From Akkermansia muciniphila (GTDB taxonomy: Bacteria; Verrucomicrobiota; Verrucomicrobiia; Verrucomicrobiales; Akkermansiaceae), in assembly GCF_040616545.1 (NCBI RefSeq), contig NZ_CP156688.1, positions 62,001 through 126,000 of the forward strand: a stretch of 64,000 nt of DNA. The letters run 5' to 3'. Numbering within the stretch: position 1 is the stretch's first letter; each line of letters begins with the position of its first letter. Shown piece after piece: positions 9,001 to 62,045 of this stretch. The notes under the pieces were generated by a model. That model was given only the letters and a program-made list of their open reading frames with translations, made no database searches and was not told the origin of the DNA. Both the position numbers and the translations under genes were made by a program.

Positions 9001-12000
9001 AGGTTCCCGGAGCCCGCCAGCGCATTGCGCCAGACATAAACGTTTCCTTCCGCCGGAACGGCACTGTGAAGGGTCAGGGTTCCGTTCAACAGAACGTCCG
9101 CGCTCTCGCCCAGATTGGCCGCCCGGGTAATGGAAACGGCGGCTCCCGCCTCCACGTTCCACAAGGCTCCGTTTTCTCCGTTAAATCCGGAATTGTCCCC
9201 GGAAAGGAGCACGTCCGCTCCGGAGAGCACGTTCACCCTTCCGGTTCCGCTGATATCTCCGGAAAGGCTGAGGGAAGAGCCCGCCACGTTCACTGTTCCG
9301 CCGTTGGCAATCCGGTTGACGAATTCTCCCGTAGCCTTTTTCCCCAGCGTCAGGACGCCGGAGGCCGTTTCCACGGCAATGTGCCCGGTTCCCAGCCCCA
9401 GCACGTGTTCCAGCCTGATTTCTCCGGCTTTGATGGAAGTAGAGCCCGTGCGGCTGTTTTCCGCATTTAAAACCACCGTTCCTTCTCCCTTCTTGACGAG
9501 TGTCCCGGCGTCCGTTCCATCGTCTGACAACCGGTTGGAAAGGTTCCATTCCGTGCCTTCCGAGGCGTCCAGCTCCAGAACGCCGCCGATGCTTACGGCA
9601 GCCTGTCCCAGCGTGCCGGAGCCGGCAGCCGTGAGGCGGGAGGACACGTCAATCGTGAAGGAAGAACCGGCCCCCAGCCGGGAGTTGTCTCCGGCCAGCG
9701 TCCATTCCGAATTCGTCAGACGAATGGCCGCGCTTTCCCCTTGAAGCGTTCCGCTCTGCGCGCCACGGCTGTTGACCAGGTCCAGGACGCCGCCGGGCTC
9801 GGAACCGAAGGTGACCGTATTGGACAGGTCGCCGGAGGAGGCACCCGTGATGGACAGTTCCCCGTCCAGCCGGATCGCGCCCGTTCCCAATCCCTTGAAG
9901 TCCGTCAGCCGGGCGGCGTTCCCCGCCTGGATGTCCACGGCGGCATTCAACTGGCCGTTGGCTCCGCGGACAACCGTCGTCGTTCCGTCACCGCCCAGGG
10001 TGAGGAGCCCCTGGCCCTCCAAAGCGTTTTCCCCTTCCAGGGAACCTCCTCCCAGCAGGGTAAGAGCGCTGTCCGCTGTCTCTCCCAAGTGCAGGGAGCT
10101 TCCGTTGGCGACAGTCATTTCTCCAGCGACGGTCAGAGCGCCGCCTTCCAGCAGAATGCTGCTGCCGTGGTCCACGGCCGCCGTTCCGCCCAGCGCGGCC
10201 TGGCCGCCCTGAAGGTTCATCAGGGCGTCATTGTCCAGCGCGGCGGCTCCCGTGAGAACAAGCCTGCCGGAAGCATTTCCCAGGTCCACCGTACTGCCGG
10301 AGAGGACGGCGGAGCCGCGCACTTCCAGCTGCCCCCCGTTCATCAGGAGTTCCGCCCCGGCTTCGGTCATGGTCAGGCCGCCGATGAAGTGGCTGTCCCC
10401 GGTCTGAGTCTTGCCGTTCATGTCTACCTTCGTTCCGGCGGCCAGTTCCAGCTCGCTGGTGTTGCCGAAGGCGTTGTCGGCGCCGTAGGTGACTTTTCCG
10501 CTGCTCACCAGGGTTTTGCCCGTATAGTTGTTGGCGGCGTTGGCGATGACGATGCCGTGCTCCCCGTCGTCAAAGGCGCGGAATTCAAAGCCTCCCCCCA
10601 CGGAGGTCGCTCCGGCTTCCTCTCCCCTGGCGGTGCTGGTGAGCTGGGCGCCCATCACGTTGCTGCTTTCTGCGGTGTTGGCAAGCTGGTAGAGCGTTCC
10701 GGCCGTGTAGGAATTGATGCGGCTCAGGCCGTAGCCCAGGTAGATGCCGTTTTCTCCGGAATTCGGGGCGGCGTCCGTCTTCACCGTCATGATGTAGTCA
10801 TACACGGCTTCGGCCACTTCCCGGCTGCCGGAGTCGGTCAGCTGCACGTATTGCCTGATGCCCGGATTCCCGGTGACGCTGCCGTCCTCATTGGTGAAGG
10901 AAAGCTGGGCGCCGTGGACGGGCAAAGCCGTGCCTTCAGCCCGCACCACCTGGTGCTGGTAGGCCTCCGCGTCGTGGTTGTCGTCAAAAAGAGTGCCTTT
11001 GGCGTCCGTTATGTGGATGGACTGGGGAATGCGCATGGCAACCGTTCCGCCGCCGTCCACATTCAGGTCATCCACGGTCAGCATGCCTGCCGGGGCGCCC
11101 TTGGCGTCCGTGCCCACCTTCAGAACGCCTCCGTTCATAGTCAACCCGCCTATCCTGTAATTGCCGTCGATGACGGTGGAGCCCCGGCCCGAACCGGAGG
11201 TGGAAAGTTCCAGCGTTCCATGTTGAAGGACTCCCCGGCCGGAAGCGTCTGCCGTGGAAAAGACGTACGTCCCATTCTTCATGTCCAGTGTTCCCGTAAA
11301 GGAATCCCCCGCAGGCAGCACACGGTCCGCATCAAAGAAGAACCGGCTCTCCTGCGTGCCCAGCACGGCATGAAGAATGCCGTTTCCGGACAGCTTGTTG
11401 GCAAACAGCAGGTCCGCGTCCTCTGCATTCGTTCCGGAAAGGGTCAGCTCCCCTCCGTTCAGGAAAATGGAGCTTCCCGTGCCGAGATTGTTGAGGACAT
11501 GGTCCGGAGAAGCCGCGTCCCGGAGCGTGCCGGCGGCGAGGGCCTCGCCCGTAATTTCCCAGGTGCCCGCAAACGCGCTGTTGTCCGCGTCCAGCGTTAC
11601 CCCGCGGCCGCTGACCAGGACCGTTTCCGCAGCGGTTCCGGCCAGGCGGTTGAAAAAGGTTTTGTCGGAAAAGGCCAGTTCCAGCAGGCTTCCGTCCTGC
11701 AGGGTCACCAGTCCGGCGCCCAGGCCGCGCTCCCCGCCCTCCCCAAGCACCACTCTGGTGCCGGAAGCGCGGCGCAATGCCCCGCTACCCGTGATCACGG
11801 TACCGCCCGCATACGTATTTTCCCGGCGGATGTTCAGCGTGCCTCCTCCGGTGACGGCCAGAAGTCCCTGGCCGCTGATGGTTCCGCCCGCCGTAACGGT
11901 GCGGCCGTTCGTATCCAGAATGCCCTGCTCCCGTCCCAGGGAAATGGCGTTGGACCACTGGAGGTCATTCAACGCGCGGATGGTCCCGGAACGGCCTCCC

Positions 12001-15000
12001 ATGCTGATCAGGGCGTTCCCGGCGGAGGCGTCCTGCCCCAGCTCCAGAACGGCCCCGTCATGCAGGTTGACCTGCCGGAAGAAATGGTTGCCGCCCAGCA
12101 GCGCCAGCGTTCCGTCCACAACGGAAACGGTTCCTGCGAACGTGTGGTTACGTTCCGAGACGAGCCTTCCCGGTCCCAGCTTTTCCCACGTTCCGGCAGC
12201 GGACCCGGCCACCATGTTGTCCAGGGTTCCGGCCGCATTGACTTGCAGCAGCCCTTCCACGGCAATGGCGCCGGCGGAATCCCCCTTGCCCAGGGCATTT
12301 GCATGGGTCAGCAGGAGGGTGGCATCCCGGCCTACCGCCGTCTCCGCCTGCACGGAGTCATTGGCCCCGGAAATGGTCAGCGTGCCCAGGTTCAGATGAA
12401 GCGTCCCGGCTCCGGCAAGCGCGCCGTCCCCGGCGATGCTGCCGCCCCCGGCAACGGACGGCGTGCCGTCATCTGCATTCGCGCCGATGGTCAGAATGCC
12501 TTCCCCGCCGTTTGCAGTTCCCAGGAAAATGCCGCCCCCGTGGCCGATGCTGACGCCTCCCGTGTAAGCCGCATGGCCGTTCAGGTCAAGCACGGCATTC
12601 GCGGAATCCGCGATGAGCAGGGAAGTGTGACGTCCGGCGCCTCCCAGGGCGGAATCGCCGCCCAGGACCAGCCTGGTTCCAACCTCGATCGTCGTCGTTC
12701 CCGTATAGCTGTTGGTCCCGCTCAGCAGGATGCCGCGTCCTCCGGCGGCATCCTTGAAACTGACATGGCCGGACCCCGCCCTGTCCGCCCCGGCGGGGTC
12801 ATTCCCGTCTGCCAGCAGGGATTCCAGGGTATAATCCGTCAGCGCAACGCTCAGTTCACGGGAAGCGTCGTCCGCATTCAGCACTACCGACAGGGTGCGT
12901 CCATCATAAATTTCCACCCGGGAAAGTTCCCGGTAGGCCACCAGGCGCGTTCCATCCTCCGTTCCCGCCGACCATGCAGTGACGCCACGGGCGATTTCCG
13001 CGCCGCCCTGCACGATTCCCTGCCGTACCGCCTGGAGATCCGCCTGGGTTTTCCCGCCCAGGCGCACGCCGGACAGGGTCCACAACCCGGCTCCGCTGAC
13101 GGCAGTTCCGCTTTCGGCAAGCAGTACGGTGCCCGGTCCGTCAAAGAAGGACAGCCTCCCTCCGTCGTAAACGGCATGTTCGCTGAGATTCAGGTTAAAA
13201 TCCGTATTCCCCGTCAGGGTGATGGAGCCGGCCTGCAGCCAGGCGGACGCTTCGTTGTCCGCATCCAGGGTCCAGTTCATTTCCCCTCCGGCAAAATTCA
13301 CGGTTCCCTCCAGCGTTCTGGCGCGCAGGGCCGGGTCTGCCTGGGCTACGGCCTGAAGGGACCCCACGCTCCCGGCGGCGGTCTTCAGATGGGAGACGCC
13401 GTCCCCGTTCATGAACCATTCCATTTGTTCGTCAACCACATAGGCCGTACTCCGCATTTCCACGGTTCCGGTGAATCCTTTTCCCAGGTCTGCGGCACGG
13501 CTACCGAAGGAGAATTGCAGCGGACTGCCATCTTCCGGGAGGCGGTCTTCCGAAAGGTCGATGACCAGGGTTCCTTCTCCCAGGATGTCGTTCGCAAGAG
13601 TATAGGGGGCGTCCTGGCTGCCGATGTAGAACATGGCCCCCCCGTTGATGCGGACGGAACCGTTCAGCGCCCCTTCTCCGGTGATTTTAAGGGTGCCGTT
13701 TTCCACGACGCTGCCGCCGGTATATTCCTGCGCGCCAGTCACCAGCAATGTTCCGGTTCCCCGCTGGATAAGGCTGCCTCCCCCTGCCGCCGTTCCCTCG
13801 TAATGGACATCGTCGCTGCGGTTGAAGGCCAGGGCCGCTCCCGAAGCCACGGTGAGTGAAAGGGAGGAATCAGCCATGGACAGGATGGAGCCGGTCCGGC
13901 CTCCGTTCCCCACCTGAAGCGTCCCTTCCCGGACGGAAGTGCCGCCGCGGTAGGTATTCTCTCCGGTAAGAACCAGCGTGCCTTCTCCCGTTTTTTCCAT
14001 AGTTTCGCCGCTGATGATTCCCTGCTGGACGGCCGCCTTTCCTTCGTCCACGTTCAGCAGGCCGCTGCCGTTGATGGAGACGTCATTCCCCAGCTCAATG
14101 CCCTGGCCGTAATCCAGAACAGTGCCGTCATTCATCGCCAGGGCGCCGCTTCCCAGGGCCTGGCCGTGGGCCAAGGTGAGCGTTCCTTCTTCCAGGATGC
14201 TCCCGCCCGTAAAAGCGCTGCTCCCGGACAGGACAAGCCTACCCGTTCCCCGCTTGACGAGGGTTCCCTGTCCGCTGACGCTTCCGGCATAATCCATGCG
14301 GTCGCTGTGATTGAATACGAATTGCGTTCCTTCTGCCAGGCTGGCGCCTGCCGCGAAACCGACCCCTGTTCCGCCGTTGCCCAGCTGCAGAACGCCTTCC
14401 CTCACCTCCGCCCCTCCGGTAAAGCTGTTCCGTCCGGTCAGGATCAGGGAGCCTCCTCCGGTCTTGACCAGCCTGCCCTCTCCGGACATGACGCCGGCCA
14501 GCACGGCATCCGTGGCGGAAGAACCGCCGTCCGCCGTCTGAACGGTCAATGCCGTTCCGGCGGACAGGGAAAAATTGTTCAGCACTCCGGTCAGGCTGCG
14601 GTCAATCCGCAGGGTGGAATCCCCCAGGACCTCAATGGCGCTGTCGGCATTACCCAGGGAGGAATTCCGGGAAATGGCCAGTATTCCTCCTGCCATTTCC
14701 GTTCCCCCGGAGTAGTTGTTGTCTGCCGACAGCACCAAGGTCCCGCTGTTCAGGCGGACTCCCCGGGACAGCGTATTGTCCAGTGTGCTACGCCATTCCA
14801 GGAGTCCCAACCCTCCCTTAGTTATATTGCCGTCACAGGAGAAATGATGGCCGTCGCCGATGATGAGCGAGGCTGAAGAAGCTACCGTGATCACCACGTC
14901 TCCGTCAATGCGGCTGGAATGGCCGCCGCGGTGGTCCAGCAAAAGCGAATGGGAGCCCTCGATGGCGACGTTTCCGCTCATGGCGATTTCATTGCTGAGC

Positions 15001-18000
15001 GTCCGGTCCTGCCGCCAGGCTTCCAGCGCGCCGCCGCGGAGCGTCAGAACGCCCGTGCCTACGGCTCCGGAAGAAACGCTCTGGTTGGTCAGGCGTTCGT
15101 CCTGGTTGATCCGCAGCGTGCCCTCATTCAGGAGGAATCCCCCGCTGAAGGTGCTGTTGCCGCTCAGCGTCAGGACGCCGGCTCCGTTCTTGCTGATCCT
15201 GTAGGTGGAATCACTGTCGTGGAAAACGGTCCCGTTGATCTCCAGGTCCGCCCCCTCTTCGTTGGAAATCTTCAAATGGCTGTCCAGGCGGACATTCGTG
15301 GAAATAAGGGCGTCTGAATTACCCGTCATTTCAATCCCGGCGTCAAATCCGGATTCCGGCGTCTGGGCCAGCACCAGAGTGATGCCGCCTGCGGCGCCCC
15401 TGATTTCAAACTGCTGGTTCCGCGTGCCGCTGAATTTCAGGTCGCCCACGGTCCGGTCCGCCGTCAGCACGGCGACGGTGCTGGAATCAAGCGCTTCATT
15501 GCCGAACGTGACGGAAGCGTTGATGATGTTCGGCACCTGGCCGTCCTTCCAGTCCCCCTGGTCGTCCCAGGAACTGCCCCGCGCGCCCGTCCAGACGTAC
15601 GTGGCGGCATACGGCAGAATCTCGTAATGCCCGTCCACCCAGACAATCCGGGCCCCGGTGCTGTATCCTTCAAAGGAAATGTTGCCGATGTACTTGGGGC
15701 TGTCCGCGCCGTAGCCGGTCAGCAGGAACTGACTTCTCCCGCCGCCGGCGATGTTGCCCTTCCAGCCCTTGATGATGAGCGTGCCGTTTTCATCCCAGGC
15801 GCCCAGGCGCCCCGCCTCCATCACCACGTTGCCGGAGGCGGCCGTGCCGCCGAAGTCCAGCGTGGACAGGGAGGAACTGCCCAGAGACAGGGTGCTCCCC
15901 GTTCCCAGGGACTGGCTCATCCTGTTCAAGGCCAGCGTTCCGCCGTTGAACGTCATGTCCGTCACGGACCCCAGCGCCTTTTCCAGGGCCAGGTTCAGCG
16001 TGCCTGAAAGCAGCGTGACGTTCCCGCCTATGTAGGCCCTGAGCGTGACATTCCTGTCACCGGCGTCGACGACGATCCGGCTGCCGCCGCTTGCGGAAAT
16101 CATGCCTTGCCCGGCTTGTCCGTTCCTGCCTGCCAGGGTCTGGTCAAAGGCCGTTCCGTCTCCCTTGCGGCCCAGCAGGAGGCTGCCGCCGCCGGTGACT
16201 TCAAACGTGCCGCGCGCCATTTCAAAAAGGCCGTCTTCCAGATAGACGTTCTTCTTCTGGCCGCCCGTGCGCACCAGCAGAAGCCCGTTGAGGCCGTCCA
16301 GCAGGATTTCCCCCTGGCCGAAGGGGGTGACGCGGCTGCCGTCCGCCATGGCGCCGATGACCATATCCTTGTCACCCAGCGTGGTAGTGACCAGGCCGTA
16401 ATTGCCGATGACCAGCGCGTAATGGCTGCTGTCCGGATCATAGCCCGTGCCGAGGAAGCGGCTGCCGTGGCCGTCATCCGTATCACCGGAAAAAGTCTTG
16501 GTGCCCAGCAGCTCCAGTTCTCCTCCCTGGCCGTCCAGCCATGCCTTGTAATTGGTGGAATTGCCGTCCGCCAGAATGCCGCCGTTGGTCAGGTCATGCG
16601 TCTCCGCGAAGGAAACGATCACGCTGTTGTAAATCTTGCTGTTCCAGGCGGTTTCCGTACTGTTGACCGTGAATTTCCGCTGGTTGTAGGAAAGCCCGGC
16701 GTTCAGGTCGGAGGCTCCCGCGCCGTTCAGGTTCAGGGTGATTACTCCTCCCGGCTGTTCTGCTCCGGCAACGCCTCCTTCCTCCACCAGGGAGGAGAAG
16801 ATCAGCCCTGCATGGAAACGGAACAGGTTGCCGAGCGTACGCACCGACCGGCCCGCTTCCCCCGAGTAAGCCTGAAGGTAGGACTGTGAAGCCGCCGTGG
16901 CGCTGGTCCACGCGTAAACGCCTATGGCCTGGTCCCCGAGCACGTTGTCGGCGCCGACGGACACGCGCCCCTCCAGGTTGTTGTAATCGTAGTCCTTTAC
17001 TCCGATGTTGAATTCCTTGAACACGTTGTCCGGATTGGAGAAGCGGACGAACTCGGTACCCCGCACCGCGACGGCCGCCTGGGAGGCGTCCACGCGGGAA
17101 TTGACGACCAGCATGGTGGGGTACTGGCCCCCGGCGTAATACTGCCCCGTGTACAGGAGCCTGTCCGTGGAGCCGAAATCCAGGGAGTTGGCGGAATCCA
17201 GCGTCAGGGAGCCCTTGCCGCCCATGAATCTCAACTCTTCCGAGGACCCCAGTTCAATATTGTTGTGAAGGACGTAATGGACGGCGGTATTGGTTTCAGG
17301 CGAATAAACGCCCAGGCTGTGGTACCGCCCGTTGCCCAAAAAGATGGTTCCCGTGCCCAGGGGGCCGGACTTGATGCCCGCTTCCGGATGGGCCGGATCA
17401 TTCAGGATGCTGCTGGAACCTACCTTGAGCGTGACTGTCCCGCCTCCCGTCGCGGTAATGCCGCCGGAAAAAGTGTTCTGCCCCAGGAAAACGCCCGTAA
17501 GGGAAGTAGTGGACGTGGTTTTGAACTCCAGCATGGAGGGGACGTTCCCGTCCGCGTCCGCAACCGTGTAATTCTCCCCGAAGGTCAGCGTGGCGCCGGA
17601 ATCGGTGGAAACCGTCTGGCGCGGGCCGTACAGAAAGCCGTCCACATCGGAAGCGTCGGCATCGTTGAACGTGATGTTGCCGATGAGAATCCAGGACTTG
17701 CCGTCATCGCCGTTCGTGGCTTTCAGATGGAGGTCGTTTCCTACCGTCCGGATGGTATAGCCGGTGAGGTCCTTGCCTCCGAAGCGGCCTTCTCCGTCCA
17801 CGGTATAGGCCCCCGCCCCCAGCGCATGGTCATGCGTGATCTCCAGCCTTCCACCCCTCTGGATGACGCCCCCGGTAAACGTGTTGTCCCCCTGGAGGCT
17901 GATGGTGTTCAAGGTCCCCTTGGAAGCGCTCCCCTCCAGAATCAAGGCGCCGGAAGAGCCGTCGGCCGCGTTGCCGATGCGGCCGCTCAACACAAGCGTC

Positions 18001-21000
18001 TGGTTGTAGGCGCTGTGGCTGACCAGCAGCCCGCCGGGGGAGATGACCATATCGGCCCGGATGTCGGGAGACATGGCTCCGGCCATGAAAATCTTGGCGG
18101 GAGCGTTCCCCTGGCCTTCCCATGTCAGCACCCCCCGTTGACCGTCGGAAGAGGAATCAATGAAAAAACTGGTGGATTTGGCGCCTTCAAAATTAATCTG
18201 GGAAAGAGTGATATCCTCTGTCAGCAGAATCGTCTTCTGGTCCAGGTCCGCATCCTGGTCCCGGAAAATGGCGATGTTGCCGCGGGTGACCGGCACCTTG
18301 CCGCCGAACCAGTTGGCGGTGAGCGACCAGGACCGGCTGTCCGCCCCCCCGCCTCCGGTCCATTCAAAAGCGGCGTCCCCGTTCGGAAGCAATTCCCATT
18401 TCTTCAAGTCTTCATGGTAATAAAGCTCCGCCCCGCGGGTATACCCGGTAAAAGCCACCTGGTTAAGCTGGTCCGCCGTCAGGGCGTTTGCCGTCAAAAA
18501 CCAGACATGTTCCGATGAAACGTCCGGACTGCCCGGCGTATTCCAAGTGCCGGAAGCGTTTTCTATATTGACCAGGTAGGGCAGTCCGCCGTTGGTACCC
18601 CAGTAGCCGACCTTGCTGAAGGTCAATTCCCCGCCTGAACCCAGCTCCATGGTCGCGGCGCCGTTGACGGTCAGCGTGCCGAACGCATTGCTGACTCCCT
18701 TCGAGCTGATGATGGAGCCCCCGTACAAATCCAGACTGGAGTATTCCCCTGCACGGAGGCCCTGAATCTGGTTGTCCCGTGTCAGGGCGAGCCGTCCGCT
18801 GGAAAGCCTTACATTGGAGGCACTGACATGGCTGATCGTTTCCTCCAACGTGGAGGTGTACCCTGTACCGTTGATCATCAACCTTAAAAGACCGTCCAAA
18901 CTGGCTTCGCCGCCGTTCAGGGAGCGGACGGAGACGTCCCCTTCCACGGAACCCGAATCATGGCGGTCCATGCTCAGGATCAGGGAGGAGGACCCGCTGT
19001 TGAGAAAGTCAACCTGCCCTATCTTCAAGACCTGCCTGCCGTAGGAATTGATAGTCACGGAACCTCCAAAATTGACGTCGGTCAGCCGGACCTCCTGCGA
19101 CTTCCCTTGCAGCCACAGGGTGCCGCCGTTTCCGGAAATGTTGACGCCGTTCCGGAAATCCACGATTGTCTGTTCACCGCCCCGGATGTAAAAATTGCCG
19201 CTGCCCGCAAAGGTGATGTCGCCCGTGCCGGCGTAATTGGCATTCTGCTCACGTTCCCCGAACACCATGTAATTCAATCCCTCGCCGTCCGTGCCGGTGG
19301 CGTCCGCCGCGTACAGCGTATTGCCGTTCAGGGTCAGGCCGCCGCTGAAACTGTTGTTACCGGAAAAATTGTAAATGCTCACCACTCCTCCCGTGGGCGG
19401 CCCCAGCACCAGTCCCCCTGCGCCCTGAAGGTCGCGGCCTTCCCGGAAATACAGGCTGCCGGCGCCTGAAATAGTAAACATGCGGTCGAGATGGACCACA
19501 TCCTTGACGGAGTTACCGGAAGCGGTGAACGCTACCATCCCCTGGGCAAGACGAAAATCATTCTGGATGACAAGCTGGTTGCGGAGTTCCGCGGAATTGC
19601 CGTTGCGGCCCAGTGCTCCGCCCTTGATGATCAGGGAACCGGTGCCCAGCACGCCGTTATCCGTCAGCATCAGGGTTCCGGACTCCAGAATGACGTTCCC
19701 GCGGTATTCCGTGTTACCCTTCTTCCGGATTTCCAAAATGCCGGATTCCCCTGTGATCACCAGGTCTCCGTCCCCCTGCAGGGCGCCGAATAGCTGCATT
19801 TTGCCGTTCTTGCCGATGAATTTCAGGCCGTTTTCCCCGATCAGGATGTTGTTGGAAATGCTGTAAGTATTGTTTTGAGTTCCCACGTACAGTTCCGCCT
19901 GGCTCCCGTTGTTGTCAAAAAACAGAACGTCGTTCCCGCTGAGGGAAAAGGACCCGGCCACGTCGTCCGCAATGGTCATCTTGCCGACTACGAACTGTCC
20001 CGACGGGGAGTTCAGCTTAATTCCCTTGCCCCGCAAATGGGGATCAAGATTGGCAAACACCATCTCCGCCCCCGCTCCGGCAGGCGCGCGGTTGGCGTCC
20101 CAGTTCCCGCCGAAAAGGGCATTCGTATTGGTGGACTTGCTGACGCCTTCCCCCAGGTAGGCCTGTCCGGTCCATGTATAAACTCCCCCCGTATTCACGG
20201 AGGCGGGGCGCAGCTCATACGCATCTCCCCGCGCGGCAACCTCAAGCCCCATTTCATCATTGTAGCCCAGGAAGTGGACCCGGGAAAACCAGGATTCCCC
20301 GCTGACGTCATGGTTGAAAAGAAGCTGGTCGTGCCCGTCCTGCCAGCCTTCCAGCGCCAGGTGTCCGGCGCCTCCGGAAAGGCTGTTGCCGGTAAAGTGC
20401 AGAATGCCGCCGCCCGAATCCGTTCCGTTGCTCAGCACGATGGTGGACCTGTCCGCCCAGACGGTGCTGGAAGTCCAGGACAAATCGGAAAAGGAGGCTG
20501 AAAATCCCCGCGTGTCCAGTGTGGAGGTTTTCCCCAGGGAAAGAGACGGTTCTCCCCCCAGCTGTCCATCCGCGCCCAGCATCAATGTGGAATGGTCGGA
20601 AACGGAGGCTTTCGCGGCAAACAGGCCGCCCAGGGAAGAATCCAGCGTGACGGAGTCTCCGGAAAGCTCTTGGAAGCCGAACGTCAGCTCGCCAAACGAG
20701 CCTTGCAGGCCGGAACCGTACAGGGTGGCGGAGGAACCGAACTGGACGTTGGGAAGATGGGAGGCAATCCCCCCGTCAATATGCACGTCTCCCCGCAGGA
20801 TGAACAGGGTGGGAGTGGTTCCGTCAGTTCCGCCGTCCAGTTCCGCGCCTTCTTCCAGGTGCACGAAGGCGCGGTTCATCAGCTCAAAAACGCCGCCGCG
20901 GTCCAGGCGGATTCTTCCCCTGACATACACGTCACGCCCGGCATCCGGTGAAAGTTCCAGCCTGCTGTTCTCCCCGATGATGGAAAGGGTTCCGGTTCCC

Positions 21001-22040
21001 AGCGGCAGGGCTTCCCCGTTCTCCGCAGGACCGCCCAGCACATAATCCGCCCCCCTGGCGGTAACGGCCGCGACGCCGTCCCGGACGGAAAAGGAACCGA
21101 ACGCATGGCCGGTCCCCTGAATTTCAAAACGTCCCAACCCGGACTTGGTGAATCCGCCCGTCCCGGCCGTGGCTACGGTGCTGCCGAATATGAGGCTGGT
21201 ATTCAGCTCGGTATCAATGCTCCTGTCGCCGTTCAAATCAATGGTCACCTGGTTGCGGGGAGCCAGCGTAATGGCATGCTGCCCGGTGATATTCAAATTG
21301 GTGTTCAGCCAGGAAAAATCGTTGGTCAGGACCAGGTCTTTCGTAAGCGCCTGCAGGGAAACGACCTGGTTGCGGAGACCTTCGTCGCCCAGAATCAACA
21401 CAGCCCCGCCCAGGGACTTGTCGCTTCCCAGATGAAGGGAGCCTTCCCGGACATGGACCTGGTCAATATAGCGGTTGTCCGCAGCCAGCGCGAGAGTGCC
21501 TGCACCGTCTTTGGTCAGCGTATTGATATACGAGGCCTCTTTGCGCATTTCCACGCGGGTGCCGGCGTCCGCATCCACGTTCAGATTATGGTAAAGGTTG
21601 GAATACGTGCCGTTGAAAATGACGTTGGAGCGTTTGGAGATGATGGTGAAATCCTGGTCGGTGGAAACGGGAACGTTCAGGTTCAGCGTCATATTGCCGT
21701 TCAGGGACATGCCGGGATTTTCCTTGCCGAAGTAAATTCTCGCCCCACTCCCCGTCAGCGTCAGCATCTTCTGGTCGTCTGCCGTGCTGACCAGCTGGTT
21801 CAGGTAAACGCTGCCGTTCAACGTGATGGTGGTAGCGGCGGACAAAAGCGCGTTGTTGAAAACAACGGTATCATACCGGGCGTAATTCAGGCCCGGCGCT
21901 TCAGCGGGATTCCAGTTGGAAGCCTCCTGCCAGGAAGCGCTGGAGGAAGTGGAGGACCAGGTGAATTCATCGGCACGGGAAGCCGCGGCCATGGCGGCCA
22001 GCAGCAATGAGGCAAGAAAAAGCGGCAATCTCAATTTCAT
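6066..22040 (-). CDS. Giant autotransporter (type Va) with many passenger beta-strand repeats
   Basis: About 5,324 residues. A Sec signal peptide (MKLRLPLFLASLLLAAMAAA, cleavage near SRA-DE) is followed by a passenger of some 5,000 residues. The passenger consists of autotransporter-associated beta-strand repeats of the form KxGxGxLxLxGxNxYxGGTxVxxGTLxL, for example VKTGGGSLILTGRNSFTGG and EKTGEGTLVLTGENTYRGG. About the last 275 residues (from roughly residue 5050, NWVDNFWIRSYGSRYNVGSG) form an autotransporter beta-barrel ending in the outer-membrane signature YRYQF. The passenger should form a very long beta-helix on the cell surface. The frame is open upstream to 22121, but the ATG at 22040 starts the signal peptide. 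No Shine-Dalgarno is visible. The ligand is unknown; a role in adhesion is inference. Confidence 0.93.
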   Translation of the reverse strand: MKLRLPLFLASLLLAAMAAASRADEFTWSSTSSSASWQEASNWNPAEAPGLNYARYDTVVFNNALLSAATTITLNGSVYLNQLVSTADDQKMLTLTGSGARIYFGKENPGMSLNGNMTLNLNVPVSTDQDFTIISKRSNVIFNGTYSNLYHNLNVDADAGTRVEMRKEASYINTLTKDGAGTLALAADNRYIDQVHVREGSLHLGSDKSLGGAVLILGDEGLRNQVVSLQALTKDLVLTNDFSWLNTNLNITGQHAITLAPRNQVTIDLNGDRSIDTELNTSLIFGSTVATAGTGGFTKSGLGRFEIQGTGHAFGSFSVRDGVAAVTARGADYVLGGPAENGEALPLGTGTLSIIGENSRLELSPDAGRDVYVRGRIRLDRGGVFELMNRAFVHLEEGAELDGGTDGTTPTLFILRGDVHIDGGIASHLPNVQFGSSATLYGSGLQGSFGELTFGFQELSGDSVTLDSSLGGLFAAKASVSDHSTLMLGADGQLGGEPSLSLGKTSTLDTRGFSASFSDLSWTSSTVWADRSTIVLSNGTDSGGGILHFTGNSLSGGAGHLALEGWQDGHDQLLFNHDVSGESWFSRVHFLGYNDEMGLEVAARGDAYELRPASVNTGGVYTWTGQAYLGEGVSKSTNTNALFGGNWDANRAPAGAGAEMVFANLDPHLRGKGIKLNSPSGQFVVGKMTIADDVAGSFSLSGNDVLFFDNNGSQAELYVGTQNNTYSISNNILIGENGLKFIGKNGKMQLFGALQGDGDLVITGESGILEIRKKGNTEYRGNVILESGTLMLTDNGVLGTGSLIIKGGALGRNGNSAELRNQLVIQNDFRLAQGMVAFTASGNSVKDVVHLDRMFTISGAGSLYFREGRDLQGAGGLVLGPPTGGVVSIYNFSGNNSFSGGLTLNGNTLYAADATGTDGEGLNYMVFGEREQNANYAGTGDITFAGSGNFYIRGGEQTIVDFRNGVNISGNGGTLWLQGKSQEVRLTDVNFGGSVTINSYGRQVLKIGQVDFLNSGSSSLILSMDRHDSGSVEGDVSVRSLNGGEASLDGLLRLMINGTGYTSTLEETISHVSASNVRLSSGRLALTRDNQIQGLRAGEYSSLDLYGGSIISSKGVSNAFGTLTVNGAATMELGSGGELTFSKVGYWGTNGGLPYLVNIENASGTWNTPGSPDVSSEHVWFLTANALTADQLNQVAFTGYTRGAELYYHEDLKKWELLPNGDAAFEWTGGGGADSRSWSLTANWFGGKVPVTRGNIAIFRDQDADLDQKTILLTEDITLSQINFEGAKSTSFFIDSSSDGQRGVLTWEGQGNAPAKIFMAGAMSPDIRADMVISPGGLLVSHSAYNQTLVLSGRIGNAADGSSGALILEGSASKGTLNTISLQGDNTFTGGVIQRGGRLEITHDHALGAGAYTVDGEGRFGGKDLTGYTIRTVGNDLHLKATNGDDGKSWILIGNITFNDADASDVDGFLYGPRQTVSTDSGATLTFGENYTVADADGNVPSMLEFKTTSTTSLTGVFLGQNTFSGGITATGGGTVTLKVGSSSILNDPAHPEAGIKSGPLGTGTIFLGNGRYHSLGVYSPETNTAVHYVLHNNIELGSSEELRFMGGKGSLTLDSANSLDFGSTDRLLYTGQYYAGGQYPTMLVVNSRVDASQAAVAVRGTEFVRFSNPDNVFKEFNIGVKDYDYNNLEGRVSVGADNVLGDQAIGVYAWTSATAASQSYLQAYSGEAGRSVRTLGNLFRFHAGLIFSSLVEEGGVAGAEQPGGVITLNLNGAGASDLNAGLSYNQRKFTVNSTETAWNSKIYNSVIVSFAETHDLTNGGILADGNSTNYKAWLDGQGGELELLGTKTFSGDTDDGHGSRFLGTGYDPDSSHYALVIGNYGLVTTTLGDKDMVIGAMADGSRVTPFGQGEILLDGLNGLLLVRTGGQKKNVYLEDGLFEMARGTFEVTGGGSLLLGRKGDGTAFDQTLAGRNGQAGQGMISASGGSRIVVDAGDRNVTLRAYIGGNVTLLSGTLNLALEKALGSVTDMTFNGGTLALNRMSQSLGTGSTLSLGSSSLSTLDFGGTAASGNVVMEAGRLGAWDENGTLIIKGWKGNIAGGGRSQFLLTGYGADSPKYIGNISFEGYSTGARIVWVDGHYEILPYAATYVWTGARGSSWDDQGDWKDGQVPNIINASVTFGNEALDSSTVAVLTADRTVGDLKFSGTRNQQFEIRGAAGGITLVLAQTPESGFDAGIEMTGNSDALISTNVRLDSHLKISNEEGADLEINGTVFHDSDSTYRISKNGAGVLTLSGNSTFSGGFLLNEGTLRINQDERLTNQSVSSGAVGTGVLTLRGGALEAWRQDRTLSNEIAMSGNVAIEGSHSLLLDHRGGHSSRIDGDVVITVASSASLIIGDGHHFSCDGNITKGGLGLLEWRSTLDNTLSRGVRLNSGTLVLSADNNYSGGTEMAGGILAISRNSSLGNADSAIEVLGDSTLRIDRSLTGVLNNFSLSAGTALTVQTADGGSSATDAVLAGVMSGEGRLVKTGGGSLILTGRNSFTGGAEVREGVLQLGNGGTGVGFAAGASLAEGTQFVFNHSDRMDYAGSVSGQGTLVKRGTGRLVLSGSSAFTGGSILEEGTLTLAHGQALGSGALAMNDGTVLDYGQGIELGNDVSINGSGLLNVDEGKAAVQQGIISGETMEKTGEGTLVLTGENTYRGGTSVREGTLQVGNGGRTGSILSMADSSLSLTVASGAALAFNRSDDVHYEGTAAGGGSLIQRGTGTLLVTGAQEYTGGSVVENGTLKITGEGALNGSVRINGGAMFYIGSQDAPYTLANDILGEGTLVIDLSEDRLPEDGSPLQFSFGSRAADLGKGFTGTVEMRSTAYVVDEQMEWFMNGDGVSHLKTAAGSVGSLQAVAQADPALRARTLEGTVNFAGGEMNWTLDADNEASAWLQAGSITLTGNTDFNLNLSEHAVYDGGRLSFFDGPGTVLLAESGTAVSGAGLWTLSGVRLGGKTQADLQAVRQGIVQGGAEIARGVTAWSAGTEDGTRLVAYRELSRVEIYDGRTLSVVLNADDASRELSVALTDYTLESLLADGNDPAGADRAGSGHVSFKDAAGGRGILLSGTNSYTGTTTIEVGTRLVLGGDSALGGAGRHTSLLIADSANAVLDLNGHAAYTGGVSIGHGGGIFLGTANGGEGILTIGANADDGTPSVAGGGSIAGDGALAGAGTLHLNLGTLTISGANDSVQAETAVGRDATLLLTHANALGKGDSAGAIAVEGLLQVNAAGTLDNMVAGSAAGTWEKLGPGRLVSERNHTFAGTVSVVDGTLALLGGNHFFRQVNLHDGAVLELGQDASAGNALISMGGRSGTIRALNDLQWSNAISLGREQGILDTNGRTVTAGGTISGQGLLAVTGGGTLNIRRENTYAGGTVITGSGALRRASGTRVVLGEGGERGLGAGLVTLQDGSLLELAFSDKTFFNRLAGTAAETVLVSGRGVTLDADNSAFAGTWEITGEALAAGTLRDAASPDHVLNNLGTGSSIFLNGGELTLSGTNAEDADLLFANKLSGNGILHAVLGTQESRFFFDADRVLPAGDSFTGTLDMKNGTYVFSTADASGRGVLQHGTLELSTSGSGRGSTVIDGNYRIGGLTMNGGVLKVGTDAKGAPAGMLTVDDLNVDGGGTVAMRIPQSIHITDAKGTLFDDNHDAEAYQHQVVRAEGTALPVHGAQLSFTNEDGSVTGNPGIRQYVQLTDSGSREVAEAVYDYIMTVKTDAAPNSGENGIYLGYGLSRINSYTAGTLYQLANTAESSNVMGAQLTSTARGEEAGATSVGGGFEFRAFDDGEHGIVIANAANNYTGKTLVSSGKVTYGADNAFGNTSELELAAGTKVDMNGKTQTGDSHFIGGLTMTEAGAELLMNGGQLEVRGSAVLSGSTVDLGNASGRLVLTGAAALDNDALMNLQGGQAALGGTAAVDHGSSILLEGGALTVAGEMTVANGSSLHLGETADSALTLLGGGSLEGENALEGQGLLTLGGDGTTTVVRGANGQLNAAVDIQAGNAARLTDFKGLGTGAIRLDGELSITGASSGDLSNTVTFGSEPGGVLDLVNSRGAQSGTLQGESAAIRLTNSEWTLAGDNSRLGAGSSFTIDVSSRLTAAGSGTLGQAAVSIGGVLELDASEGTEWNLSNRLSDDGTDAGTLVKKGEGTVVLNAENSRTGSTSIKAGEIRLEHVLGLGTGHIAVETASGVLTLGKKATGEFVNRIANGGTVNVAGSSLSLSGDISGTGRVNVLSGADVLLSGDNSGFNGENGALWNVEAGAAVSITRAANLGESADVLLNGTLTLHSAVPAEGNVYVWRNALAGSGNLVVNLFSETEEFAFGESHAADTGRNFTGTVTLGAATFRLDGPGSGNVQALAQATLELADGSHAVVGQGSGQNALGGLTLRGGELDFSCVQHTGAHPGLSADHVSLVASNGTLTVAGGTVKVNAGLLTGIDTTVDTTANLLTHEDPSMAFDPDGRELAPVKLVETAAGQVQGGTASLEVVDSDSGAVMPMDATEQTVSLRHGDEVVATGHYNYGVSLGAERDGLYVGYILTQVDIQDGKTLVLDNEDATGAAADLSAHLAGTGHLTVHASGNINKVISLSHSGNTFTGITTVTDGTTLRAETATDHIIGESRQLVLGSGSTFDMNGTNQNVNSLTGAGQVLFNGEGVLRLRNAADADSTYRGDMLGAGTMVKTGAGELTLQGGRILHEQGTTVEEGVLTMNGASAHANKPLVTIKGDSRVNMDGGNIGSSGDTLFAAEDATGELHVRNMAGYTVGRDGQRLLDARGSGSLNAVFSNVKDVRGDVHAAPESAVSMRLADGTTLTGMIDPASLAVDGTSTWNMTADSTLTNLRSSGVIDFMDGGADGFKTLTVTGNMDNDGDIPGSFRMNVSLAAMKTDMIKVGGSVSGSYHIIIKRDALTDLTDARTFSLKLVDVDGTNAGNADGETSFHGSTDVRMRKAVVQAGDAEGNHKEDWFLVYDSSKDPSGDVNDTGKSILGISDISLLWFTQTDTLTRRMGELRMNGPLSGNWVDNFWIRSYGSRYNVGSGATGSSYRDYVYGSDIGVDRGWQLDPANRLYTGLFAGYGGARKDFRAPGAKGDTDSFYFGGYGTWINRHGYYVDLVIKAQHFYHDFRAYDESFNRTSGDYTQWAVGSSIEAGKMFRFRNDWFIEPQLQLNYFHGEGAGYCTTGANPFQTQLGGTDVLNFRYGVNLGRTFSVREHGALQPYVTAEGIHQASSGGRVNTGDGQWRPNMDGSVFRCGAGVIWQMDARNQLHFSYDAAFGKKYTMPWGINLGYRYQF

Positions 22041-22994
22041 AAGGGGAATGGGGTATGTGTTTAAAATGGGATAGGGGATTTTTAAAAGCAGGGAGAGAGA
22101 AACGGCCTTCGCCGGGAGCAAATGCCAGTACGCGGATTTGAGCGCATGCGGAGCGTTCCGAAGAACAGCATGCGTTCACGTCAAAGGCCCTGGAACGGGC
22201 AGCCGGACTCAAGAATCCGCAAATGTAGAAATAAATGCTACTCTACCATTTACAAAAGCCGGGGCGCCTTTCTCCACGTTAAAGTTGTTTTACCGGACAT
22301 AACCAACCTTGTGCCGGGAGGAAGGAGCACAACCGAACAAAGCCGATGGAGGAGAGTCGGCCACAGGACAAAAAAAACTTTCTTTAATGGAATAAAGGAA
22401 CATCTGCCGCAGGGGCGCCGGAAAAGCGGCCGAAGCCATCTTTTCCCGCCGGGAGCGCCAAAGGAGGGAGAAGGCTCTCCCGGATCCGGACATATGCTGC
22501 GCCAGCCCGGCACGGACACAGCCTGCCGGGAACCGTAAACGCAGATGAATGGCGGTATTCCCATACTCGTGCTGACCGAAATCGACCGTGTTTGTTCAGC
22601 TGAAAACATTCTTTCAACAAACTATGTCAGGGAATAAATCAGCGCAGCAAATGGGGAACAAATACACTTTTGTTCTTTTTTACAATTTGCCTGTTCAATA
22701 ATACAATAATCCCAAAACAGGAAATGACCTTACCACATTAACTATTGTTTTTCAACGTTTTGATCCTGCAAGTGAAAACATGTTGCCCGGCCGGGCACAG
22801 CCTGATGCTCCGCCAGCCGTGTTGCTCCGTCCTGAAAAGCTCCGGGAATGCGCCATAATCCCGGCGTCTTGAAACTTTTTCCGCAGCCTCACCGGGCATC
22901 GCTTCCACCATTCTTGCATTGGGCGCCGCCAACGCCCGTGCAGGCTCTTTTCAGGCCTTCTGGCTCTTCCTTTCTTGCCAAACTGCATCCCGAC
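22041..22994. other. Gene-free stretch upstream of the autotransporter
   Basis: Several frames are open here (for example 22122-22538 on plus and 22250-22609 on minus). Their predicted products are low-complexity, basic, lack domains and overlap one another, so no gene is called. The stretch must hold the promoter and 5' leader of the minus-strand autotransporter, but no convincing -35/-10 pair was found. A hairpin with a T run is listed separately at 22656. Confidence 0.5.
22656..22681 (+). terminator. Terminator-like hairpin
   Basis: GAACAAA (22656-22662) pairs with TTTGTTC (22669-22675) and is followed by a run of six T. No gene that it would terminate is recognised on the plus strand. 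It may end a decayed or non-coding transcript. Confidence 0.4.
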
Positions 22995-25199: not shown

Positions 25200-25625
25200 T
25201 TATTTCTTCGTATCCCCGTGCCTTCTCATTAATTCCCTGACCTTTGCCCTGGTCTCTTCGTCACTTGACTGTTCAAGCTTCTTATAAATATCAGTCATAT
25301 CAAAAAATACAGTCTTGGCGGGCCCCTTTCTGTTAAAGACAGTAATACCGTGAAGATACAGCCCGCGCAGCATCCCGTACACATGGCCTCCACGAAATTC
25401 GTAACCTTTAAAGTGCTCGTCGAGGTAGGCATCCTGTGCCGCTTTGATCTCTTCAACGCTTTCAATGTGTTCCAGAAGAACCAGCTTCATCGCAGACCGG
25501 GCGAATTCCAGTTCCTTCTTAACTCCCTCATCAACCGGATCCATCGATTTTTCTCCTTTCGAATATCCGGCAAAAGGTACAAACACAAATAACGATGTAA
25601 ACAATATTCTTTTTATATATTTCAT
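25200..25625 (-). CDS. Small secreted protein of unknown family (paralog 1)
   Basis: 141 residues with an N-terminal signal peptide (MKYIKRILFTSLFVFVPFAG, cleavage near YSKG). The mature part is helical and charged. Its C-terminal 80 residues resemble those of the neighbour at 25682-26464: IKAAQDAYLDEHFK, then KTVFFDMTDIYKKLEQ, then VRELMRRH...KK. The family is not recognised. The order and shared strand suggest a tandem duplication, with about 56 bp between the two genes. Confidence 0.65.
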   Translation of the reverse strand: MKYIKRILFTSLFVFVPFAGYSKGEKSMDPVDEGVKKELEFARSAMKLVLLEHIESVEEIKAAQDAYLDEHFKGYEFRGGHVYGMLRGLYLHGITVFNRKGPAKTVFFDMTDIYKKLEQSSDEETRAKVRELMRRHGDTKK

Positions 25626-25681: not shown

Positions 25682-26464
25682 TCATTTCTTTACGGGTTCA
25701 TGTCTTGCCATTAATTCCTTGATATTCATCTTAGCTGACTTGTTGCCCCGTTTCTCAATTTTTTTGTAAGTATCAGTCATATCAAAGAAGACCATCTTCA
25801 CTTGGCCGGTCTCATCATGCATTCCAATGATGTGAATGTATCGGCTATCACGAATGGTATATATATTGATAATTCCATGAAGGATTTCTTCCTTATAATG
25901 TTTACAAAGATATGCATCTTGCGCAACTTTGATCCCTTTTATATCTTTTATATTTTTCAATACAACAGGATTTTTACAAGCCTCTATATTTTCCTTCATT
26001 TCCTTCTCCTGCAAAAATTTTCCCTCCTCAGAAGAACGGTCAGTCGTAAGAGCTAAAGCAGCAATATCGCAACCTATGCCTAAACAAGCACAACCGTGAA
26101 CCGCACAATTACAACCATTTGTTCTGCACTCCTCCCCCAATTTTACAAACGATTCTCTAACAGCCTGAGCAGTGGCTTCCATCTCAGCCTCTATTTTTCC
26201 AAGAGGGAATAATTCTTTTACAACATACGGTCCAAGCTGCTTATTATAATTTTCTTCGGGCCCATTCTTACCATCATGATGTATGTAACTAAAAACGGCT
26301 GATGTATTGACTTTGTAAGAACGCAAAGTCTGGGGTTGCAGTATACCCTCTACATTAAGACCCTCTATAGACACATCACATCTCAATTGTTTCGCTTCCA
26401 ACGTTGCATAAAATGACGTAGCTGAAAATAATACACCAAACAGTAATTTTGTTATACTATTCAT
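25682..26464 (-). CDS. Secreted cysteine-rich protein of unknown family (paralog 2)
   Basis: 260 residues with a signal peptide (KLLFGVLFSATSFYATLEA). A central cysteine cluster (ECRTNGCNCAVHGCACLGIG, six cysteines in 20 residues) is absent from the shorter paralog downstream. The C-terminal part aligns with it: IKVAQDAYLCKHYK, then VKMVFFDMTDTYKKIEKRG, then IKELMARH...KK. The cysteine cluster could bind metal or form disulphides after export; neither is shown. Low GC compared with neighbouring genes suggests relatively recent acquisition. Confidence 0.65.
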   Translation of the reverse strand: MNSITKLLFGVLFSATSFYATLEAKQLRCDVSIEGLNVEGILQPQTLRSYKVNTSAVFSYIHHDGKNGPEENYNKQLGPYVVKELFPLGKIEAEMEATAQAVRESFVKLGEECRTNGCNCAVHGCACLGIGCDIAALALTTDRSSEEGKFLQEKEMKENIEACKNPVVLKNIKDIKGIKVAQDAYLCKHYKEEILHGIINIYTIRDSRYIHIIGMHDETGQVKMVFFDMTDTYKKIEKRGNKSAKMNIKELMARHEPVKK

Positions 26465-28187: not shown

Positions 28188-28216
28188 ACGATGCACTTTC
28201 TATGTATTCCTGTCAA
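28188..28216 (-). promoter_or_regulatory. Candidate promoter of the leader peptide-leuA unit
   Basis: On the minus strand, TTGACA (28216-28211), a 17-bp spacer and a weak -10, CATCGT (28193-28188). A start near 28181 would give a leader of about 245 nt before leuA. Confidence 0.45.
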
Positions 28217-28296
28217 GACCACTAAACGTTTATGACTTCGTTAGCCTACTTCATCAATTGGACTATTGAAAAGCAATATACTTTCCGCATAAAGAG

Positions 28297-28334
28297 CTGC
28301 CCAGCTGACATTAGTATTAGTATCAGCTGGGCAG
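28297..28334 (-). terminator. 3' hairpin of the crRNA-like unit
   Basis: Twelve-bp perfect arms, CTGCCCAGCTGA (28297-28308) and its complement (28323-28334), around 14 nt; CTCTTT follows on the minus strand. Read on the plus strand, the hairpin is followed by a longer T run (28342-28347), so it could act in both directions. Confidence 0.6.
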
Positions 28335-28365
28335 AGCATTCTTTTTTACCAATATCCCCCAATAG

Positions 28366-28396
28366 GTTTCAATCCACGCATCCGTAAGGATGCGAC
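28366..28396 (-). CRISPR. Solitary type I-C CRISPR repeat
   Basis: The minus strand reads GTCGCATCCTTACGGATGCG followed by TGGATTGAAAC (31 nt). GTCGC, a short stem-loop and GTGGATTGAAAC are the hallmark of type I-C repeats. No second intact copy and no cas gene exist in the window. Part of a repeat-like element in inverse orientation (GTGCAATTGAAAG, 28454-28466) lies 60 bp away and may be chance. Confidence 0.75.
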
Positions 28397-28489
28397 ACTT
28401 TCCATCTGTAAACATCTACAGATGGATATTATCTGAGCCATGCACTCGTAAAAGTGCAATTGAAAGGAGGAACCCCTCCTAGATGAAAG

Positions 28490-28518
28490 ATTATGATTAG
28501 AAACTTGAAGATTGTCAA
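28490..28518 (-). promoter_or_regulatory. Promoter of the crRNA-like unit
   Basis: Minus strand: TTGACA (28518-28513), a 17-bp spacer and CATAAT (28495-28490). Near-consensus sigma-70 type. Confidence 0.65.
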
Positions 28519-28540
28519 TCCTTTCAAAAAAAATCATTTC

Positions 28541-28575
28541 CTATTAGGGGAAATTAGCAATCAGCTTGACAAGTA
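28541..28575 (+). other. Candidate protospacer with TTC PAM over the divergent promoter
   Basis: TTC at 28538-28540 is the type I-C PAM. The next 20 nt (28541-28560) agree with the first 20 nt of the guide (28365 downward) at positions 1-5, 7-11, 13-15, 17, 19 and 20. They differ at 6, 12, 16 and 18. Positions 6, 12 and 18 are those flipped out in Cascade; 6, 16 and 18 would also be G-U or U-G wobbles against the target strand. The PAM-distal part does not match. The full site covers the -35 box at 28566-28571. Confidence 0.6.
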
Positions 28576-28594
28576 AATTCCAATTTACTATTAA
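28566..28594 (+). promoter_or_regulatory. Consensus promoter with a palindrome filling the spacer
   Basis: TTGACA (28566-28571), a 17-bp spacer and TATTAA (28589-28594). The spacer plus one base is a perfect palindrome, AGTAAATT-CC-AATTTACT (28572-28589), the classic position for a repressor operator. It drives the 28.6-29.08 kb unit. Confidence 0.65.
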
Positions 28595-28674
28595 GAAGGG
28601 CGTTCCAGGACAGAAAAGGGCAAGGTACACCCAATACCTCACCCTTTCTCCCTGAACACGGCCTCATACAGAAG

Positions 28675-28917
28675 TTGATATCAGAGTTGCTGTCTAGCAA
28701 CCACCTTATAGAGGTTCATGATGAGGATGTCAAATCGGGAAGCGAGGTCAATATTATTAGAATGGCTAAAAAACACTATATCTATCGACGTTTTATACCG
28801 GCAATAGTAACAATTTACTTCATTGCGGTACCGAATGAGGGATTCTACAATAAGGATATTGTGCATGATCTTGTTAAACAAGGTTATACTGTACGGATAA
28901 ACATAGAACCCCATTAA
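28675..28917 (+). CDS. Unknown small protein in the CreT-like unit
   Basis: Open frame of 80 codons from a TTG at 28675, or 51 codons from an ATG at 28762 (MAKKHYIYRRFIPAIVTIYF...). It has a basic patch (KKHYIYRR), a hydrophobic stretch (FIPAIVTIYFIAVP) and a polar C-terminus (DIVHDLVKQGYTVRINIEPH). No family is recognised and neither start has a good Shine-Dalgarno. It lies between a consensus promoter and a strong terminator, so it is probably transcribed. It could be a small membrane-active toxin, or merely spacer RNA. The composition is AT-rich, unlike its neighbours. Confidence 0.4.
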   Translation: MISELLSSNHLIEVHDEDVKSGSEVNIIRMAKKHYIYRRFIPAIVTIYFIAVPNEGFYNKDIVHDLVKQGYTVRINIEPH

Positions 28918-28959
28918 CCGAAACTCATTGCTGAAAACAGTTTTAGAGGAGAAAAGTAT

Positions 28960-29019
28960 ATGAATCTGAACTGGATAATACGCCTAATACCAATCTATTT
29001 AGTGTTGCCTCAACACTAA
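28960..29019 (+). CDS. 19-codon minigene with tandem AUA codons and strong Shine-Dalgarno
   Basis: AGGAG lies 8 nt before the ATG at 28960. The product is MNLNWIIRLIPIYLVLPQH. Codons 6 and 7 are both ATA, codon 9 is CTA and codon 10 is ATA, all expected to be rare in a GC-rich genome. The stop codon overlaps a 9-bp hairpin (TTAGTGTTG / CAACACTAA, 3-nt loop), and the transcript terminator follows. Minigenes with a strong Shine-Dalgarno and two adjacent AUA codons are known CreT toxins that sequester tRNA-Ile(CAU). A small hydrophobic toxic peptide is the other possibility. Confidence 0.45.
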   Translation: MNLNWIIRLIPIYLVLPQH

Positions 29020-29042
29020 GATTGAGATATTATCCACAACTC

Positions 29043-29079
29043 AACGGCTTATTGCTATTCACGGCAATAGGCCGTTTTT
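29043..29079 (+). terminator. Strong terminator of the 28.6-29.08 kb unit
   Basis: A stem of about 13 bp: AACGGCTTATTGC pairs with GCAATAGGCCGTT (one T-G wobble) and is followed by a TTTTT run. On the opposite strand no U run follows, so it serves the plus strand. Confidence 0.85.
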
Positions 29080-29107
29080 CTACACTTTGCTCTACGGGCT
29101 TAATCCT

Positions 29108-61989: not shown

Positions 61990-62045
61990 GCCATCCGGGG
62001 AGAAGCCGCACGTGTCCATCCGGCTTCCCCCGGAAGCCTCCGTGT

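Follow-up and report, generated by a model that had tools for sequence, protein, structure and literature searches.

A putative CRISPR-regulated module of type I-C was found in Akkermansia muciniphila, within the 64,000-nt stretch of DNA analysed here (the window, positions 62,001–126,000 of a 3.055-Mb contig). A crRNA-like gene stands beside a divergent unit, and its guide has a PAM-flanked match that overlaps the predicted promoter of this unit. A type I-C Cascade whose genes lie outside the window would carry the guide to this promoter and silence the unit. On sequence evidence, guided repression of this plus-strand unit is very probable. That the unit is harmful when released is reasonably likely. 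As an explanation of the whole locus, Cascade-guided repression of a likely harmful unit is likely.

The features of the locus are listed in Table 1. The initial annotation had described two divergent promoters, a type I-C repeat on the minus strand followed by a guide that ends in a hairpin, and a plus-strand unit that ends at a strong terminator, and all of these were recovered. The minus-strand promoter matches the consensus at 11 of 12 positions. The plus-strand promoter scored 10/12 in a laxer scan and was not listed by the first scanner because its -10 element is imperfect. Both are treated as predictions because the scan found four promoter-like sites, against a mean of 2.7 in shuffled sequences. 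Two details of the earlier description changed. It had counted one repeat in the minus unit; this repeat is well kept, but a second, degenerate repeat lies upstream of it. What had been taken for short AT-rich ORFs in the plus unit is in fact a leader RNA with a conserved structure, followed by a DUF3892 gene that is cut short.

Table 1. Features of the putative type I-C module and of the unit it is predicted to silence, in window coordinates
Feature	Coordinates	Strand	Remark
Whole segment, absent from same-species strain G009 at the leuA–recJ site	28200..29107		
3' hairpin of the crRNA-like transcript, at least 12 stem pairs	28297..28334	-	Stands where a second repeat would be; likely terminator or 3' end
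Guide, 35 nt (creA spacer-like segment)	28331..28365	-	
Kept type I-C repeat, GTGGATTGAAAC handle	28366..28396	-	
Inter-repeat stretch, 33 nt, with a 10-pair palindrome at 28401-28426	28397..28429	-	
Degenerate upstream repeat (psiR1)	28430..28459	-	Clearer in G001 and G007
Predicted creA promoter, TTGACA-17-CATAAT, 11/12	28490..28518	-	Similar sequence in G001, G007 and G044
TTC PAM of the target	28538..28540	+	
Protospacer matched by the guide (target), extending to the plus promoter's -35	28541..28575	+	
Predicted promoter of the silenced unit, TTGACA-17-TATTAA	28566..28594	+	
Leader hairpin 1	28618..28644	+	
Conserved structured leader RNA (three-way junction, model R1)	28656..28752	+	
Truncated DUF3892 open frame, 51 aa from ATG, premature TAA	28762..28917	+	
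Decayed 3' part of the DUF3892 gene, 1-nt deletion	28918..29024	+	Stop and deletion common to G005
Terminator of the plus unit, hairpin and T-run	29045..29079	+	

The kept repeat reads GTCGCATCC-TTAC-GGATGC-GTGGATTGAAAC, and the genome's arrays have the same form with different stem letters. A hairpin follows the guide at the matching place in all six related loci described below. The palindrome between the two repeats reads TCCATCTGTA..TACAGATGGA, and the scanner also calls a plus-strand terminator-like site there. No credible target was found for the inter-repeat stretch. A second guide in this position was considered, with a 10/10 seed match at a TTG site in the window's own genome, and judged to be a chance match. 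It does not keep register with the degenerate repeat, and it scored best among 12 offsets tried; the other five loci reach 8–9. Separately, G006, which has no Cas8c match, holds a lone palindrome resembling the repeat, with a GCGGATTGAAAC tail, at ~1501–1531 of locus L016; it is possibly a relic.

Type I-C systems prefer a TTC PAM. Guide nucleotides 1–5, 7–11, 13–15, 17, 19 and 20 pair with the target, nucleotides 6, 12, 16 and 18 are mismatched, and few pairs form past nucleotide 20. All ten seed positions (nucleotides 1–5 and 7–11) match, and none of 300 shuffled guides equalled the real one within ±1 kb. With the position between its two blocks left free, the 3.06-Mb genome holds the seed four times: in the guide itself, in the target and at two further sites preceded by GCA and CCC. 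TTC together with the seed occurs at a single site, at the neighbouring unit. The PAM-flanked match overlapping the plus promoter, which the initial annotation had reported, is confirmed.

DNA and protein searches of 76 genomes of the genus Akkermansia gave six module loci: the window's own (G000), G001, G002, G007, G044 and G057. Each has a single kept repeat, a guide and a hairpin facing the silenced unit. The guides differ among the loci, and the targets differ accordingly. When scored over guide nucleotides 1–17 without 6 and 12, the best match of each guide in ~3.2 kb of both strands lies on the opposite strand, 127–228 nt away, in 6/6 loci. Five targets carry a TTC PAM and one, in G001, TTT. 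Cognate guides and targets agree at 58 of 60 seed positions, and no variable seed position is mismatched in more than one of the six loci. Nucleotide 6 is mismatched in all six, and nucleotides 12 and 18 in five each. Among the 720 possible reassignments of guides to targets, only two reach 58/60: the true assignment itself and one that exchanges two equal seeds. With nucleotides 13–17 included, only one of the 720 reaches the cognate score. The guide tests and the leader statistics use the six repeat-bearing loci and dN/dS uses five; the repeat-less DUF3892 loci, one in G012 and the second copy in G044, were left out.

Strength varies by locus. No shuffled guide was as good in G000, G001, G002 or G044 (0/300 each). 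In G007, 2/300 shuffles did as well without a PAM condition, and the target is not in the local top three when matches are simply counted over 25 nt. G057 is weak, with a seed of 8/10 and equally good shuffles in 102/300 cases with any PAM and 7/300 with TTN. The predicted -35 starts inside the 35-nt protospacer in 4/6 loci. In the other two it lies beyond the protospacer, the best prediction starting 63 nt (G002) and 67 nt (G057) from target nucleotide 1.

A matching Cascade is encoded. Cas5c, Cas7 and Cas8c each have a single match in the window's own genome, and the cas locus near 2.39 Mb holds cas3, cas5c, cas8c, cas7, cas4, cas1 and cas2, each above its curated cut-off. The initial annotation had proposed a search for cas5-cas8c-cas7, and the complete set was found. 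Array repeats occur at five places in this genome, two of which adjoin the cas locus. The module lies 2.3 Mb from cas along the contig, or ~0.75 Mb if the contig is a closed circle. Cas8c was looked up in all 76 genomes, and Cas5c, Cas7 and Cas3 in seven chosen ones. Cas8c was found in 25/76, all six module genomes among them (hypergeometric 0.0008, uncorrected for kinship). The 51 genomes with no Cas8c match, some of them incomplete, contained no module. Cas5c and Cas7 are present in 6/6 module genomes, as is the Cas3 core above cut-off; none of the three is found in G005. All six genomes with an intact locus thus encode a type I-C Cascade, and no counterexample of the kind named in the initial annotation was seen. 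The module is not required in Cas8c genomes, since 19/25 do without it. Among the Cas8c matches, G075 has two and G035 has an internal TAA in the frame.

Taken together, the repression half of the original proposal, a CreTA-like module using type I-C effectors, is strongly supported by the Cascade in the genome, the covariation of guide and target in six genomes and the CreA-like pairing. The expected place next to cas genes is not where the module sits. It lies between leuA and recJ in G000, and the recJ-side flank is found at the corresponding place in G001, G007 and G044; the module has other neighbours in G002 and G057. The empty-site test covered eight chosen genomes out of 76. Seven, including G009, have a spacer of 79–128 bp without a module at leuA–recJ, and in G009, a strain of the same species, an unrelated 83-bp spacer replaces the segment. 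The module is thus a discrete segment that strains of one species may have or lack. G005, which has no Cas5c, Cas7 or Cas8c, keeps both segment edges at leuA–recJ and lacks the stretch that holds the repeat, guide, both promoters, target and leader. If the addiction is real, this scar suggests how cells escape it.

Other parts of the window hold further features. A 5351-aa open frame of repetitive make-up (6066–22121, minus strand) resembles a giant autotransporter. Two adjoining small proteins on the minus strand (25200–25625 and 25682–26464) are 37% identical over 108 aa and are tandem paralogues; neither has an NCBIfam match.

Between the promoter and the gene of the silenced unit lies a leader RNA with a first hairpin and then a three-way junction. 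RNAalifold gave a structure of 28 pairs with 88% of cells paired and two-sided changes at 8 pairs. This paired share was reached in 0/500 shuffles and the number of two-sided changes in 10/500, figures that favour the structure because it was derived from the same sequences. Further pair types are unexceptional (94/500 shuffles). Slid controls had 28–47% of cells paired and 1–4 two-sided pairs. Folded singly, the leader clearly beats shuffles in three of six loci (z -3.2 to -5.1) and mildly in three, including the window's own (z -1.3 to -1.9), where 23/28 pairs form. A covariance model found the leader at the six module loci only among the 76 genomes, with filters that may lose weak matches. 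The window's leader is 59–77% identical to its relatives, which share 50–75% among themselves.

Downstream, the DUF3892 gene is intact in 5/6 loci. PF13031 (DUF3892) scored above cut-off in the three relatives scanned with Pfam, and the truncated frame of the window had no Pfam match. dN/dS is 0.10–0.14 in three intact pairs; dS is not computable in the other 7/10. The window's own gene is damaged, with a TAA after 51 codons from the ATG and one base missing further on. Both lesions are common to G005 and are therefore not recent. The DNA behind the TAA is 59–64% identical to the relatives, against 67–77% among them. In the kept frame the corresponding ranges are 47–75% and 48–69%, and codon constraint is weaker (dN/dS ~0.44 to G001 and ~0.34 to G007). 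Since the gene is truncated and its constraint weaker, the effector may be dead in the window. Guide, target, promoter and leader nonetheless persist. An evenly drawn sample of 386 genomes, covering 50 genera of the order, had DUF3892 proteins in Akkermansia only. Outside the genus (Clostridia, Enterococcus, haloarchaea), 0/9 DUF3892 loci had a type I-C repeat within 1.1 kb upstream, and inside it 2/8 had none. Because such repeat-less loci exist, possession of the gene does not by itself imply toxicity. DUF3892 paralogues in G012 and G044 (L038, 1501–1770, minus strand; L040, 1501–1767, plus strand) have mutually similar upstream DNA, with no repeat nearby and no leader match.

DUF3892 has been proposed to have a dsRBD/HPF-like fold and to be fused to Min-Wnt effectors in predicted antiviral suicide systems (PMC12419801). 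A Foldseek search of the PDB gave no match at E <= 0.001, and the fold searches neither confirm nor exclude this fold. A tRNA-sequestering toxin was also considered. The window has a 19-aa mini-ORF (28960–29019, plus strand) with a strong SD (AGGAG), an ATA ATA pair and other rare codons. It was rejected: it is formed from the decayed DUF3892 end and is absent in 5/5 relatives. Its likeness to the published tRNA-Ile-sequestering CreT may be coincidental.

Cas5c, which stands in for Cas6 in type I-C, processes the repeats and leaves an 11-nt handle. In the mechanism that we favour, Cas5c would cut the kept repeat to give a crRNA-like RNA with an 11-nt 5' handle, and the hairpin rather than a second repeat would form its 3' end. 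As pairing mostly ends after about nucleotide 20, Cascade would bind without Cas3 cutting. If Cascade were lost or blocked, the unit would likely be released and likely do harm. The derepressed leader RNA, the DUF3892 protein or both would then arrest the cell, which would be addicted to Cascade. A phage anti-CRISPR that disables Cascade might in this way lead to abortive infection. We infer both the toxicity of the plus unit and the addiction. Because DUF3892 is truncated in the window while guide and target are intact, what stays guarded there is probably the leader RNA or the 51-aa remnant, unless the remainder is simply slower to decay. A more specific version, which would make this a new class of CRISPR-guarded effector, is tentative and less likely than not. 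Type I-C Cascade would hold down a structured leader RNA joined to DUF3892 with its proposed dsRBD/HPF-like fold, and the RNA or the RNA–protein pair would arrest translation when Cascade fails. The window's lineage would have shed the protein and now guard the RNA alone, a step from protein toxin to RNA toxin.

What the silenced unit does could be read in other ways. The DUF3892 protein itself might be the effector, as a CRISPR-repressed toxin of the CrePA kind or a sensor of RNA or ribosomes that is freed by phage anti-CRISPRs, with a leader that only regulates and a window copy that is a relic. We consider this possible but doubtful. The intact gene in 5/6 loci and the dN/dS of 0.10–0.14 in the three computable pairs argue for it, as do the proposed dsRBD/HPF-like fold, Min-Wnt fusion and antiviral suicide role (PMC12419801) and the existence of CrePA as a known protein-toxin form (PMC12737573). 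Yet the stop and deletion, shared with G005, are old while guide, target, promoter and leader persist, no PDB match was found by Foldseek at the same threshold, and the nine loci examined outside the genus have DUF3892 genes with no type I-C repeat nearby. The same lesions would suit a module that is a relic in the window's strain only, with a working creA and an inert silenced unit, and this too we hold to be unlikely. The premature TAA and 1-nt deletion, the low identity of the dead part (59–64% to relatives, 67–77% among them) and the weak codon constraint of the kept part fit such decay. It agrees poorly with a leader and a kept frame that are no less similar to the relatives than these are to one another (59–77% against 50–75%, and 47–75% against 48–69%), with the 23/28 leader pairs that form, and with a seed that still matches at 10/10 positions despite the age of the stop and deletion, which G005 also has.

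Repression could also be real and its target harmless, Cascade controlling the DUF3892 and leader unit as, for example, an alarm gene that comes on when Cascade is blocked, with no addiction. The 19/25 Cas8c genomes that lack the module, the clean empty site in same-species G009 and the related genes with no type I-C repeat nearby are consistent with this reading, which we rate as somewhat less probable still. It does not predict that the 51 genomes with no Cas8c match (some incomplete) should all lack the module. Nor does it account for the G005 scar, where repeat, promoters and leader are gone, as expected if an unrepressed unit is costly, though this is a single event. Finally, the locus might be an accident or leftover with a fortuitous local match: either a lone repeat that remained when an array decayed, or an anti-CRISPR RNA (Racr). 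A single well-kept repeat outside the arrays is what this would leave, and solitary repeats in phages reportedly can act as anti-CRISPRs. The guide–target covariation in six genomes, the 0/300 shuffles in 4/6 loci and the chromosomal leuA–recJ site in G000, with the recJ-side flank likewise in G001, G007 and G044, make it very improbable. Cascade-guided repression of a likely harmful unit remains our preferred reading.

If this reading is true, type I-C and a genus of gut symbionts join the known range of CRISPR-guarded addiction, which would gain a new effector, a structured RNA and/or DUF3892, together with a natural six-genome series of co-changing guide–target pairs. Whether such modules explain the retention of CRISPR-Cas would become testable.

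Three known systems invite comparison. CreTA is a type VIII RNA toxin–antitoxin of Haloarcula hispanica and Halobacterium hubeiense, with a type I-F form in Acinetobacter. In CreA, mutation showed that nucleotides 1–5 and 7–11 are needed and 6 and 12 are free, with a TTC PAM (PMC8501985). The present module likewise has a crRNA-like antitoxin candidate arising from ectopic repeats, one of them degenerate. The same seed and TTC PAM apply, with 10/10 matches in the window and 58/60 over the six loci. The target lies at the partner's promoter, going by predicted promoters, for the window's locus and for 4/6 overall. A matching Cascade is encoded in 6/6 genomes, and repression is predicted to need it. 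A one-repeat form with a 3' terminator, like this one, is described for H. hispanica (PMC8501985).

The differences are as clear. This module is type I-C, and its guide follows the better-kept repeat. Two divergent promoters serve it, in contrast to the one operon promoter of H. hubeiense (PMC8501985). The cases described in PMC12737573 lie in or beside the cas locus, whereas this module is far away. Its silenced unit is a structured leader RNA with DUF3892, presumably toxic, and not a conserved tRNA-sequestering mini-ORF. A conserved CreT of that kind, with a strong SD and paired rare codons, is present, going by sequence, in the window and in 0/5 relatives. We do not file the module as CreTA proper because its partner RNA is a candidate toxin and it does not lie beside cas. 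Type I-C is not mentioned in the main texts of the four CreTA and CrePA papers searched, and a wider search, which took in few subscription papers, gave no paper that combines at least three of four CreTA and type I-C terms.

CrePA, a CRISPR-repressed protein toxin with a KilA-N domain (PMC12737573), is also close. There too a CreA-like guide with Cascade represses a protein-coding unit, as is predicted here. This unit differs in carrying DUF3892 instead of KilA-N (in the three relatives scanned, Pfam found no domain but DUF3892), in its structured leader and in the truncation of the protein in the window. CreR is similar in that a crRNA-like RNA, partly complementary to a promoter, takes Cascade there (PMC12737573 and PMC13131331). 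CreR targets a cas promoter, whereas here TTC with the seed is found only at the neighbouring unit. The module works like CreTA and CrePA, with a new subtype, a new layout and a new effector.
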